DNA from: Halorientalis sp. IM1011
GTDB taxonomy: Archaea > Halobacteriota > Halobacteria > Halobacteriales > Haloarculaceae
Length of the DNA stretch: 64,000 nt
Reading direction: 5' to 3'
Assembly: GCF_001989615.1 (NCBI RefSeq)
Contig: NZ_CP019067.1
Coordinates: 2,666,001-2,730,000, forward strand
Shown here: positions 295 through 5,367 of the stretch, piece after piece
Position numbering within the stretch: position 1 is the first letter of the stretch
Layout: each line of letters begins with the position of its first letter
Notes under the pieces: model-generated
Database searches by the model: none
What the model was told of the DNA's origin: nothing
Seen by the model: the letters and a program-made list of their open reading frames with translations, nothing else
Made by a program: the position numbers and the translations under genes

Positions 295-2523
295 ATGAAC
301 GAAGTTCAACTAGAGGTGGCGAAGGCGTACCCGAACGACTCGGGACGCGGTATCGCCCGCCTCGACCCCGACACGCTGTTGCATCTCAAGCTCTCGCCGG
401 GTGACATCATTGAGATCGAAGGGAGCGACACCACCGCGGCGAAGGTCTGGCGCGCCGACCGACAGGACTGGAACACCGACACCGTCCGCATCGACGGGTT
501 CACGCGCCAGAACGCCGACGTGGGCATCGGCGAGCGCGTCACCATCCGCAAAGCCGAGGCCGAGAAGGCAGACGAACTGGTGCTGGCTCCGCCCGAGGAG
601 GCATCCGTACAGTTCGGCTCGGACGCCGCCGGCATGGTCAAACGCCAGATCCTCAAGCGGCCGGTCGTCGAACGGGACATCGTGCCCGTCATGTCGAGCA
701 CGAACCACCCGTTCATGCGCTCGCCGGGCCAGGCCATCCCGCTGATCGCCGTCGAGACCGACCCCGAGGGCGTCGTCCTCATCACCGAGGACACCGACGT
801 GGAACTCCGCGAGGAGCCCATCTCCGGCTTCGAGAAGACCGGCGGCGGCATCACCTACGAGGACATCGGCGGCCTGCAAAACGAGATTCAGCGGGTCCGC
901 GAGATGGTCGAACTCCCGATGAAACACCCCCAGATATTCAAGAAACTGGGGATCGAGCCCCCGCAGGGGGTGTTGCTCCACGGGCCGCCCGGGACCGGGA
1001 AGACGCTGCTCGCCAAAGCGGTGGCCAACGAGACCTCCGCGAGTTTCTTCTCCATCGCCGGCCCGGAGATCATCTCGAAGTACTACGGCGAATCGGAGCA
1101 ACAGCTCAGGGAGATCTTCGAGGACGCGAGCGAGGAGGCGCCCTCGATCATCTTCATCGACGAACTGGACTCCATCGCGCCCAAGCGCGAGGACGTGACC
1201 GGCGAGGTCGAGCGCCGGGTCGTGGCCCAGCTGCTGACGATGATGGACGGCCTCGAATCCCGGGGCCAGGTCATCGTCATCGCGGCGACCAACCGCGTCG
1301 ATTCTGTCGATCCCGCACTGCGTCGGCCGGGCCGGTTCGACCGCGAGATCGAGATCGGCGTCCCGGACGAGGTGGGACGCGAGGAGATCCTCCAGATCCA
1401 CACCCGTGGGATGCCCCTCAGCGACGACGTGAACCTCTCGAAACTCGCCGAGGAGACCCACGGGTTCGTCGGCGCGGACATCGAGAGCCTCACGAAGGAG
1501 TCGGCGATGAAGGCCCTGCGGCGGTACCTCCCCGAGATCGACTTAGACGAGGAGGACATCCCGCCGAGCCTGATCGACCGGATGATCATCAAGCGCGACG
1601 ACTTCAAGGGTGCGCTCAACGAGGTCTCCCCGTCGGCGATGCGGGAGGTCCTCGTGGAACTCCCCAAGATAAACTGGGATCACGTCGGCGGGCTCAACGA
1701 CGCCAAAGAGCAGGTTCAGGAGGCCGTCGAGTGGCCGATGAACTCCCCCGAGAAGTTCGAGCGCATGGGCGTGACGCCCCCGTCGGGCGTCCTGCTGTAC
1801 GGCCCGCCGGGTACCGGCAAGACGCTGATGGCCAAGGCCGTCGCCAACGAGACGGACGCCAACTTCATCAGCGTGCGCGGGCCCCAGTTGCTTAGCAAGT
1901 GGGTCGGTGAATCGGAGAAGGCGATCCGGCAGACCTTCCGGAAGGCCCGGCAGGTCGCGCCGACGATCATCTTCTTCGACGAACTCGACTCGCTGGCCCC
2001 CGGTCGGGGTGGCGACGTCGGCTCGAACGTCTCCGAGCGCGTCGTCAACCAGTTGCTCACGGAACTCGACGGACTGGAGGAGATGGAGGACGTGATGGTC
2101 ATCGGCGCGACCAACCGGCCGGACATGATCGATCCGGCACTGATCCGGTCGGGGCGGTTCGACCGGCTGACCTACATCGGCGAACCCGACGTGGAGGGTC
2201 GCGAACAGATCCTCCGCATCCACACGCAGGACACGCCGCTGTCGGCGGACGTGAGCCTGCGCGAACTCGCCGAGATCTCCGAGGGCTACGTCGGCTCCGA
2301 TCTGGAGAGCATCTGCCGCGAGGCGGCCATCGAGGCGTTGCGCGAGGACGACGACGCCGAAGTCGTCGAGATGCGCCACTTCCGACAGGCGATGGAGGGC
2401 GTCCGGCCGACCGTCGACGAGGACATCCGCGACTACTTCCAGCAGATGGAAGACGAGTTCAAGGGCGGGGCCAAGCCCCAGCGCAAAGGCGGTCGCGGCG
2501 GCGGCCGCATCGGCTTCCAGTAA
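295..2523 (+). CDS. cdc48: AAA+ ATPase Cdc48 (VCP/p97 homologue)
   Basis: This 742-residue protein is an archaeal Cdc48, a hexameric unfoldase that extracts and unfolds proteins, often for proteasomal degradation. Residues 1-190 form the Cdc48 N-domain (double-psi barrel plus second subdomain). Two AAA modules follow. D1 has a Walker A GPPGTGKT at 230-237 and Walker [11 protein letters not shown]2 has a second GPPGTGKT near residue 503 and IIFFDELDS. Arginine-finger segments (RRPGRFDRE and RSGRFDR) are present in both. The C-terminus ends in a Gly/Arg-rich tail ([11 protein letters not shown]) and does not show a hydrophobic-Tyr-X proteasome-docking end, so direct docking on the 20S particle by that motif is not evident. 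Length is normal for the family. A T-run follows the stop codon. Confidence 0.97.
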
Positions 2524-2731: not shown

Positions 2732-2910
2732 CGACCCGGTTCTGACCGTCCGCGAACAGTTGTCGACCGAACCTCGGGCATCCCGGTCGCCTTTCGCGAC
2801 CGTTTCTCGGTGTCGCACGGAGATACGAAGCGATGCGTCCGCGACCGGCCCCGGTTTCGAACTCGGAAACCGGTGGTGGAACTAAAACCCCGGGCTGTTA
2901 CTCAGTTCGC

Positions 2911-3309
2911 ATGGTGCTGGAGGTATACGCCGAGTCCGAGGCGTACACGCTGGGCTGGGACCCGGAACTGGAGGCCGTCGTCCTCGAGTGGCAGACCACG
3001 CCGGACGGCGAGTCGTTCCGAGCGGGTCAGGAGGCGCTCCTCTCGCTCGTCGAGGAGCGAACGGCGACGAAGATTCTCGCGGATTGTCGCGCGTTCGAAT
3101 CCTTTCCGGACGAGACGGAGTGGCTGCGCGAAGACTGGTCGCCCCGGTTCCTGGCGACGAACGTCGAGTACGGTGCGTACATCTATCCGGAAGACCGCGT
3201 CGCGCAGTTCGAACTCGACAGAATGGGCCGGATCGACTCGGACATCCCGCTGGAGCAACTGTTCGCCGAGGACCTGCCGGAAGCGCGGGCCTGGCTCCGT
3301 GCGAAGTGA
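2911..3309 (+). CDS. STAS/SpoIIAA-like domain protein
   Basis: This 132-residue acidic protein starts MVLEVYAESEAYTLGW. The pattern is a short beta-rich start, a helix with a LLSLVEERTATKILAD segment, then FESFPDETEWLREDW and a C-terminal helix. It resembles the SpoIIAA/STAS-like folds found as single-domain proteins in bacteria and haloarchaea, usually of unknown role. The ATG at 2911 was chosen because an earlier in-frame ATG adds an unlikely basic, low-complexity head. Also, an A-rich TATA-like box (actaaaacc) lies about 26 bp upstream of 2911, consistent with a leaderless transcript. No catalytic residues are evident, and the partner is unknown. Confidence 0.7.
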   Translation: MVLEVYAESEAYTLGWDPELEAVVLEWQTTPDGESFRAGQEALLSLVEERTATKILADCRAFESFPDETEWLREDWSPRFLATNVEYGAYIYPEDRVAQFELDRMGRIDSDIPLEQLFAEDLPEARAWLRAK

Positions 3310-3447: not shown

Positions 3448-4590
3448 CTACAGCTCGCCGAGTTTCCGGAGGAGCTGCCCGCGGTACTCCTCGTCGGCCC
3501 GCACGTCTTTCAGTTCGAGGACGTTGCGTTCGAGTTTGTCCAGTGCGACGTTGAACGACTGTTCCGCGCCGTAGCCCTCGCCGGAGCCGGCGATCTGGCC
3601 CTCGGTGGTGCGCAGGCGGATCTGACACTGGAGCAGCGGCGTGCCCCGCAGTTTCTCCTTGTGTTCGTGGAAGCGGACGTGGGCGTGCCGGACCTGCATG
3701 TCGCTGTACTTGTCGACGACGGCCTCGATGTCCTCGCGGACGGTGTCCCGGGAGAGCGCCTCGAGGAGCTTGATGTTCGTGATCTGAACGTCCATGTGCT
3801 CCTCCTCGGTGTAGGTCAGCGCCCGCAAGACGTCGGTCTTGGTGAGGATGCCGACCACCTGGCTGTCGTCGTCTTCGGGGGTGACGACCAGGCCGTTGTA
3901 GTCGTTTTCGATCATCCGGGTGACGGCCGACCGGACCGACTCGGCGGTCTCGGTCGTGGACACGGGGCTAGACATCACGTCGTACACCGGGATGTCGAGG
4001 ATGCGGTCGTTGCCCCCGGCGCGCTCGCCGCGAGTGGTCTTGTCCATGTCCCGGACGACCACGTCGACGATGTCGTGGGTGGTGAGCATCCCCGAGAGCA
4101 GGCCGTCCTCGTCGAGGACGGGTACCCGCGAGATGCCGTGCTCGCGCAGGAGGTTGATCGCCTGCCCGATGCGGGTGTCCTCGCCCACCGTGACGACGTT
4201 CTCGGTGTAGATGTCGCCGACGGTCAGCGCGTCGAGGTGTTCGAGGACGGCTTCGAGGATCGAGTTGGTCGTGACGATTCCCCACAGCCGGCCGGCCTCG
4301 AAGACGGGGGCGATCTTCGTGCCCCCTTCGACGAGGACGCGCGCGACCTCGCGCACGTCGTCGGTCCGTTCGACCTTCGGGGCCGACACCACGAGGGACT
4401 CGGCTTTGGCGTCGTCCTGCACGTGGGACTGGAGGAGCTGTTTCCGGCCGATCACACCCTCGTAGTCCCCGTCGTCGGTGACGATGATGCCCCGCGGGTT
4501 CTTGCGCTCGAAGATGGAGCGGACCTTCGCCAGCCGCTCGGTAGCGTCGACTTCGATATAATCGCTGGTCGCGATATCAGCAATATCCAT
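3448..4590 (-). CDS. Four-CBS-domain protein with C-terminal HPF-like ribosome-hibernation domain
   Basis: The protein has 380 residues. Residues 1-265 hold four CBS repeats, seen as recurring units such as SDYIEVDATERLAKVRSIF, NVVTVGEDTRIGQAINLL and MSSPVSTTETAESVRSAV, each ending in a GIVT or GILTKTD-type strand. CBS pairs bind adenine nucleotides. Residues from about 266 to 380 (starting MDVQITNIKLLEALSRDTV) have the beta-alpha-beta-beta-beta-alpha layout of the S30AE/HPF family, which sits in the small-subunit decoding centre and keeps ribosomes inactive. The combination suggests that ribosome inactivation is gated by cellular AMP/ATP or a related nucleotide. It is a single gene on the minus strand; gattatac lies immediately before the ATG. 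The CBS assignment is secure; the HPF-like fold is inferred from pattern. Confidence 0.88.
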   Translation of the reverse strand: MDIADIATSDYIEVDATERLAKVRSIFERKNPRGIIVTDDGDYEGVIGRKQLLQSHVQDDAKAESLVVSAPKVERTDDVREVARVLVEGGTKIAPVFEAGRLWGIVTTNSILEAVLEHLDALTVGDIYTENVVTVGEDTRIGQAINLLREHGISRVPVLDEDGLLSGMLTTHDIVDVVVRDMDKTTRGERAGGNDRILDIPVYDVMSSPVSTTETAESVRSAVTRMIENDYNGLVVTPEDDDSQVVGILTKTDVLRALTYTEEEHMDVQITNIKLLEALSRDTVREDIEAVVDKYSDMQVRHAHVRFHEHKEKLRGTPLLQCQIRLRTTEGQIAGSGEGYGAEQSFNVALDKLERNVLELKDVRADEEYRGQLLRKLGEL

Positions 4591-4881
4591 CGTATAATCC
4601 CGTGTTTGCTTGACTGCCTGGGGTAATCAAACTTAGCGGTGGTTCCCCCCGACTGGCGACCGGCGACAGTGATATGCGTGTCGCACCTGTCGGCCCGGTT
4701 GCGGTCTCTACTGACCCGGTATCGACACGTTCACGTACGCCCCCGACACCACACCGAACGTCCCCGCTCCGCAGGGTCGTGTGTCTCTATATCAGTATAA
4801 GGCGTCCAATGTGGTATTATATCGATTAGAGGAACGCTTTAGGAGCGCGATTCACGATTTTTCGGTGGGAGGGGACCCACC
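4591..4881. promoter_or_regulatory. Divergent intergenic promoter region with TATA-like boxes
   Basis: The spacer is 291 bp. For the rightward gene, ctatatcagtataagg at about 4787-4802 and ggtattatatcg at 4811-4822 are strong TATA-like stretches in a GC-rich background. The last 18 bases form a hairpin abutting the start codon, listed separately. No small gene is supported here. Confidence 0.45.
4864..4881 (+). promoter_or_regulatory. Hairpin with the ribosome-binding site in its loop
   Basis: GGTGGG (4864-4869) pairs perfectly with CCCACC (4876-4881), leaving AGGGGA as a six-base loop. The ATG starts at the very next base (4882). The purine-rich loop is the only Shine-Dalgarno-like sequence. 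In the RNA the site would be displayed in, or hidden by, a small stem touching the start codon. Confidence 0.5.
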
Positions 4882-5367
4882 ATGAACAACGAAATACGAC
4901 TCGAACTCTACGTGCGGACGCTCTCTCCACCGGGTGCACGCACGCGACAGGAGCAGGTGATCGAGCGCCTCCAGCGCCTCGAAGACGAGGGACACATCGC
5001 CGATTTCTACGTGAAAGTCTGGGGCCGCCAGATCGATCCGACGACGAAGGCCGCCGACACGGATCAGGGACAGTTCATCCTCAACCGGATCGCCGAGTTC
5101 AAGCAGTGGGCGCTGGCCGACAACACCACCCTCGAATCGTTCTATCAGACCCACGAGCAGTCCTCGTCGATCACCGGACGGGACCACACCACCATCGTCC
5201 TGCCGAAGATGGGCCTGGCCGAGTACCACGGGAGCGAACTCGAACAGGTCACGCCCTGCACCGAGGGAGACGACGTGATCAGCGTCGTCAACCACCTCGA
5301 CGACCTCGAACGCCGACTGGCCGACCAGCCGACGGCCAGCGCGGCCGCACCGGTCGCCGAGGAGTAA
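4882..5367 (+). CDS. Conserved haloarchaeal protein, function unknown (161 aa)
   Basis: The product starts MNNEIRLELYVRTLSPPGARTRQ and contains IERLQRLEDEGHIADFYVKVWG, then a helical middle and a C-terminal segment with GDDVISVVNHLDDLERRLADQ. It is soluble and acidic, and I recognise the type only as an uncharacterised haloarchaeal family. No catalytic motif is seen. One Cys-containing segment (VTPCTEGDD) is present. The gene stands alone, with TATA-like boxes about 60-95 bp upstream and a hairpin touching its start codon, which hints at control at the level of translation. Confidence 0.75.
   Translation: MNNEIRLELYVRTLSPPGARTRQEQVIERLQRLEDEGHIADFYVKVWGRQIDPTTKAADTDQGQFILNRIAEFKQWALADNTTLESFYQTHEQSSSITGRDHTTIVLPKMGLAEYHGSELEQVTPCTEGDDVISVVNHLDDLERRLADQPTASAAAPVAEE

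Follow-up and report, generated by a model that had tools for sequence, protein, structure and literature searches.

An open reading frame in the 64,000-nucleotide stretch of Halorientalis sp. IM1011 DNA analysed here (the window) raised the question of whether a haloarchaeal protein in which four CBS domains precede a domain resembling HPF is a ribosome hibernation factor, and whether its action is controlled by adenine nucleotides. A factor of this kind, HibA, was described in April 2026 by Madru et al. (PMC13324472; PDB 9SR9-9SRF, 9T7H) from Pyrococcus abyssi (Q9UYR4/Pab0961) and occurs in 47% of archaeal genomes. HibA consists of a CBS module, residues 1-269, followed by an HPF/RaiA-like C-terminal domain that occupies the mRNA/tRNA channel of the 30S subunit, and the CBS module was found in three positions on the 50S subunit, at the PTC, at uL5 or in the region of the L1 stalk (PMC13324472). 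Ribosome binding, inhibition and protection were shown for the P. abyssi and Thermococcus barophilus proteins, and deletion of the gene in T. barophilus lowered the 70S pools and delayed regrowth (PMC13324472). The same study presented the CBS-HPF arrangement as archaeal; its main text is silent on haloarchaeal copies. In Haloferax volcanii, a protein with tandem CBS domains and a C-terminal hibernation-factor-like domain, HVO_2384, was noted in 2025 (PMC12607858, PMC3820547).

The gene and the domains of its product

The open reading frame runs from an ATG at 4590 to a stop codon at 3450-3448 and comprises 380 codons (Table 1). The preliminary description had located it correctly and had omitted the strand. 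Residues 1-380 were conserved in dozens of haloarchaeal genomes at approximately 62-94% identity, so the frame is a real gene rather than a chance one. The position of a candidate TATA-like element suggests that the hibA leader is very short or absent.

Table 1. Positions of hibA, its encoded domains and neighbouring features in the window
Feature	Positions	Strand	Basis
hibA-type gene, core (short-loop) class, 380 aa	3448..4590	minus	Pfam, phmmer, tree
TATA-like TTTGATTA	4624..4631	minus	about 37 bases upstream of ATG, picked by eye
CBS1, residues ~1-57, without T-x-x-D adenylate motif	4420..4590	minus	Pfam and motif alignment
CBS2, residues ~62-119, canonical Asp position mostly lost among orthologues	4234..4407	minus	Pfam and alignment
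CBS3, residues 124-179, T170-x-x-D173	4054..4221	minus	Pfam and alignment
CBS3-CBS4 loop, residues 180-200	3991..4053	minus	counterpart, in the alignment, of the PTC loop of P. abyssi HibA
CBS4, residues ~201-258, T250-K-T-D253	3817..3990	minus	Pfam and alignment
C-terminal domain, HPF/RaiA-type	3454..3792	minus	Pfam, profile, fold model
Cdc48/p97 AAA ATPase, neighbour of hibA at 25 of 53 related loci	295..2523	plus	context

Four CBS stretches were identified by Pfam (PF00571, 3.7e-39), bearing out the earlier assignment of the first 265 residues to four CBS repeats. A model of the full-length protein (pLDDT 79.7, pTM 0.64) contained the expected CBS and HPF elements, with a modest pTM that left the orientation of the CBS half relative to the HPF half unfixed. 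In a Foldseek search with this model, the CBS part matched ribosome-bound archaeal CBS chains of Sri (9znf, 9zng, 9zni) and Dri (9e6q, 9e7f). The loop connecting CBS3 and CBS4 has 21 residues in both the window protein and P. abyssi HibA according to the alignment; the model confidence fell below 50 at residues 183-192 and this loop is probably flexible, as judged from the model.

No HPF or HibA entry was present among the best 50 Foldseek matches of the full-length model in a structure library ending 8 April 2026, where CBS and AMPK-gamma chains dominated. Since these chains swamped the search, the C-terminal domain was given its own model and its own search. The isolated domain was predicted with a pLDDT of 84 and a pTM of 0.72, and its 24 matches in the PDB at E<=0.001, which were also its best 24, were all bacterial or chloroplast chains of HPF, RaiA, YfiA, pY or RafH. 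Thus, the structure prediction that the preliminary description had proposed as a check returned an HPF-like fold, in agreement with its statement that the C-terminal 115 residues resemble HPF/S30AE. The corresponding family, PF02482 (Ribosomal_S30AE), was matched with 23.9 bits when these 115 residues were scanned alone, a borderline score relative to the cut-off of 23.7 bits.

The resemblance could in principle be spurious, with the C-terminal domain being an unrelated ligand-binding or dimerisation domain, since the PF02482 score on the whole protein (21.4 bits) lies under the gathering cut-off and weak matches to DUF1508/UPF0339-like proteins were obtained as well. However, 31 of 36 orthologous C-terminal domains matched the same family at E<=0.01, the best at 2.9e-6, so that the borderline score is not a chance result. 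The domain alone was also related to the C-terminal domain of ribosome-bound HibA, at 4.8e-8 by sequence and 2.2e-13 as a profile. A spurious match was rejected on this profile evidence and on that of the fold, where all of the best matches belong to the HPF family, and we consider its probability to be close to nil.

Relationship to HibA and other ribosome-associated proteins

Two chains of known structure were end-to-end relatives of the window protein. One, 9sr9_H, is identified as P. abyssi HibA by the data statement of PMC13324472; the other, of 406 residues, is found in 9l96, 9l98, 9l9c and 9l9v. Residues 3-377 aligned with residues 6-388 of 9sr9_H with a phmmer E value of 8e-51. The two proteins share the architecture of HibA, four tandem CBS domains and then one HPF/RaiA-like domain in a single chain, as well as full-length homology, the length of the PTC-loop segment and the adenylate motifs of CBS3 and CBS4. 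They differ in that identity is only about 31% and in that the window protein, known here from its sequence, is acidic (pI 4.7).

Other ribosome-associated proteins were less similar. Dri of Pyrobaculum calidifontis and Sri of Methanosarcina acetivorans are ribosome-bound archaeal CBS modules resembling the CBS part of the window protein, but Dri has two CBS modules (~650 aa) and no HPF domain, and the matched Sri chains, at 257-281 residues, are too short to hold both a CBS module and an HPF domain. A Dri identity was rejected for a 380-residue protein with one CBS module and an HPF domain, and the presence of the latter likewise disposed of a stand-alone CBS module. The bacterial proteins HPF/RaiA/YfiA and long HPF share the fold of the C-terminal domain, although at low identity (12-22%), and lack a CBS module. 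Moreover, the HPF domain is placed differently: in bacterial HPF and long HPF, the HPF domain is N-terminal and stands alone or is followed by a dimerisation domain, whereas in the window protein it is C-terminal, behind the CBS domains, so assignment to either bacterial type was rejected. Pfam found no dimerisation domain in the window protein. HVO_2384 has a comparable size (42.5 vs 42.3 kDa) and is likened to the window protein by its description, which suggests that the two are orthologous.

Taken together, these comparisons make it very probable that the window encodes the core HibA orthologue of haloarchaea and that this protein acts as follows. Under starvation or stress, the HPF/RaiA-like domain would bind the mRNA/tRNA channel of the 30S subunit near the decoding site, the four-CBS module would swing over the vacant tRNA sites of the 50S subunit, and the loop between CBS3 and CBS4 would be able to reach the peptidyl-transferase centre. 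Translation would be stopped, the 70S particle held together and the ribosome protected until growth resumes, and the single putative adenylate-binding site kept by the CBS3/CBS4 pair may tune the availability or release of the factor. For the window orthologue we infer ribosome binding, inhibition and protection by analogy with its relatives in P. abyssi and T. barophilus. The CBS-HPF fusion was already known, because HibA with the same fusion was published in April 2026; the fusion itself is not new, and with the window protein a published kind gains a haloarchaeal member. The suggestion that the fusion is an archaeal solution to starvation control was right, the same arrangement having been reported independently as HibA (PMC13324472), while a physical role of the CBS module on the 50S subunit had been unforeseen.

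Two loop classes in the Halobacteriales

A HibA-type gene is near-universal in the order, being present in 112 of the 117 sampled Halobacteriales genomes and in all 97 of those of good quality, and approximately 40 of the 117, as read from the table of copies, have more than one. In the frame used, a stop codon breaks up the copy of Halarchaeum acidiphilum, which reflects either a sequencing error or a broken gene. The genome of strain IM1011 has three copies, the window gene, a divergent short-loop copy of 384 residues (C1:1012949-1014100) that is 44% identical to the window protein, and a copy that is about 38% identical with a Gly/Ser-rich loop of 46 residues (C1:3328006-3329154).

Of the haloarchaeal homologues, 87 (including one or two incomplete sequences) had 21-22 residues in the segment aligned to the PTC loop; in the other 33, this segment had 32-46 residues and was Gly/Ser-rich. 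Long and short loops were separated by one branch of the tree, supported at 96/93 even without the loop columns and at 85/93 with them. At the threshold used, a long-loop copy was apparently the sole copy in some genomes (G009, G011 and G025). The long-loop class is often megaplasmid-borne; full-length relatives of the long-loop copy occurred on 40 haloarchaeal plasmid records, and the loops were 38-46 residues long in each of the seven plasmid copies inspected. Universal stress protein genes were located near three of these seven (H. mediterranei pHME505, Salinirubellus sp. SYNS196 and Natrialba magadii pNMAG01).

Haloferax mediterranei has two plasmid copies, on pHME505 and pHME132. Across the 192 residues compared, the pHME505 protein, WP_004060604, does not differ from the chain of 9l96, 9l98, 9l9c and 9l9v; these four belong to eight PDB entries containing haloarchaeal uL2. 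Because this chain and uL2 share four entries, ribosome structures evidently include a long-loop haloarchaeal HibA, the probable hibernation factor encoded on pHME505, the nature of the entries being deduced from the chains that they hold. WP_004060604 has the same domain architecture as the window protein but is plasmid-borne, 39% identical and of the long-loop class (46-residue Gly/Ser-rich loop vs 21 residues).

The two-class pattern is the only part of these results for which no published description was found, our search having returned none of a long-loop HibA class in the Halobacteriales. One reading, to which we give slightly less than an even chance, is that a near-universal short-loop housekeeping factor, here the window protein, is accompanied in many genomes, frequently on megaplasmids, by condition-specific long-loop paralogues, which would spread with replicons and whose loop would engage the PTC or another 50S site differently.

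Adenine nucleotides and a possible second role

The alignment of 120 distinct haloarchaeal homologues and P. abyssi HibA, the sequence of the latter being taken from the phmmer alignment, showed that the T/S-x-x-D adenylate motif was confined to CBS3 (D173) and CBS4 (D253), most sequences having no motif in CBS1 and CBS2. Neither aspartate varied among the 120 aligned sequences, which include P. abyssi HibA; in one plasmid copy from outside this set, Asn replaces the aspartate of CBS3. This pattern agrees with the single site of HibA, where AMP or ATP is bound at the CBS3/CBS4 interface (PMC13324472). AMP (Kd 12 uM), ADP and ATP are all ligands of the P. abyssi CBS module in isolation, AMP being preferred, and neither AMP nor ATP clearly altered the binding or the conformations of P. 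abyssi HibA on the ribosome (PMC13324472).

The preliminary description had gone further in proposing that adenine nucleotides directly control ribosome silencing. The intact CBS3 and CBS4 motifs and the AMP binding of the P. abyssi module favour the part of this proposal that concerns sensing, and from its sequence it is plausible that the window protein senses nucleotides. Direct switching is unproven, ribosome binding by the P. abyssi protein not being clearly affected, and any regulatory role of nucleotides in the window orthologue is one that we infer. If the CBS module were a genuine sensor of energy state, so that ribosome binding would be favoured by AMP or countered by ATP, the retention of the motif in CBS3 and CBS4 only, the invariance of its two aspartates and the preference of the P. 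abyssi module for AMP over ADP and ATP would be accounted for. However, AMP left the classes of reconstituted P. abyssi complexes unchanged, ATP added only one minor state, and native P. abyssi complexes showed no nucleotide, so that gating of hibernation by adenylates is rather doubtful. A further possibility is an additional function in DNA repair or signalling, in which the protein would also bind RadA/RadB or protein-modifying enzymes, these partners sequestering it or being regulated by it. HVO_2384 was reported to bind RadA/RadB (PMC3820547, personal communication) and was reported with Pat2 Y154A (PMC12607858), the P. abyssi homologue was pulled down with RadB and GINS, and radB lies about 14 kb from the window hibA in this genome. 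Abundant ribosome-bound proteins commonly contaminate pull-downs, however, and both the conserved HPF fold and the cryo-EM structures of relatives indicate ribosomes. We regard such an activity as improbable, and as a possible second role of the HibA orthologue rather than its main one.

The immediate neighbourhood gave little guidance. Among the 53 related loci, trpD lay close to hibA in 25, as did the gene of the Cdc48/p97 ATPase in 25; the case for a functional link from this was weak, the neighbours being on other strands or kilobases away, and we do not propose an operon. A gene for an HTH_63 family protein (4882-5367, plus strand) lies divergently upstream of hibA and was near it in 17 of the 53 loci. 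A conserved 158-residue open reading frame with no Pfam match at E<=0.01 (2833-3309, plus strand) adjoins hibA and was found in only four of them. The genome also encodes SBDS, a protein found together with HibA on part of the idle P. abyssi ribosomes.

A fusion of CBS and HPF domains that was read from raw sequence is thus a real, widely conserved gene, and the results add evidence from homology and fold for HibA in a genetically tractable group of archaea. Two questions are testable in Haloferax: whether hibernation is regulated through the one putative adenylate site that is conserved, and what leads many haloarchaea to retain extra long-loop copies, often on megaplasmids.
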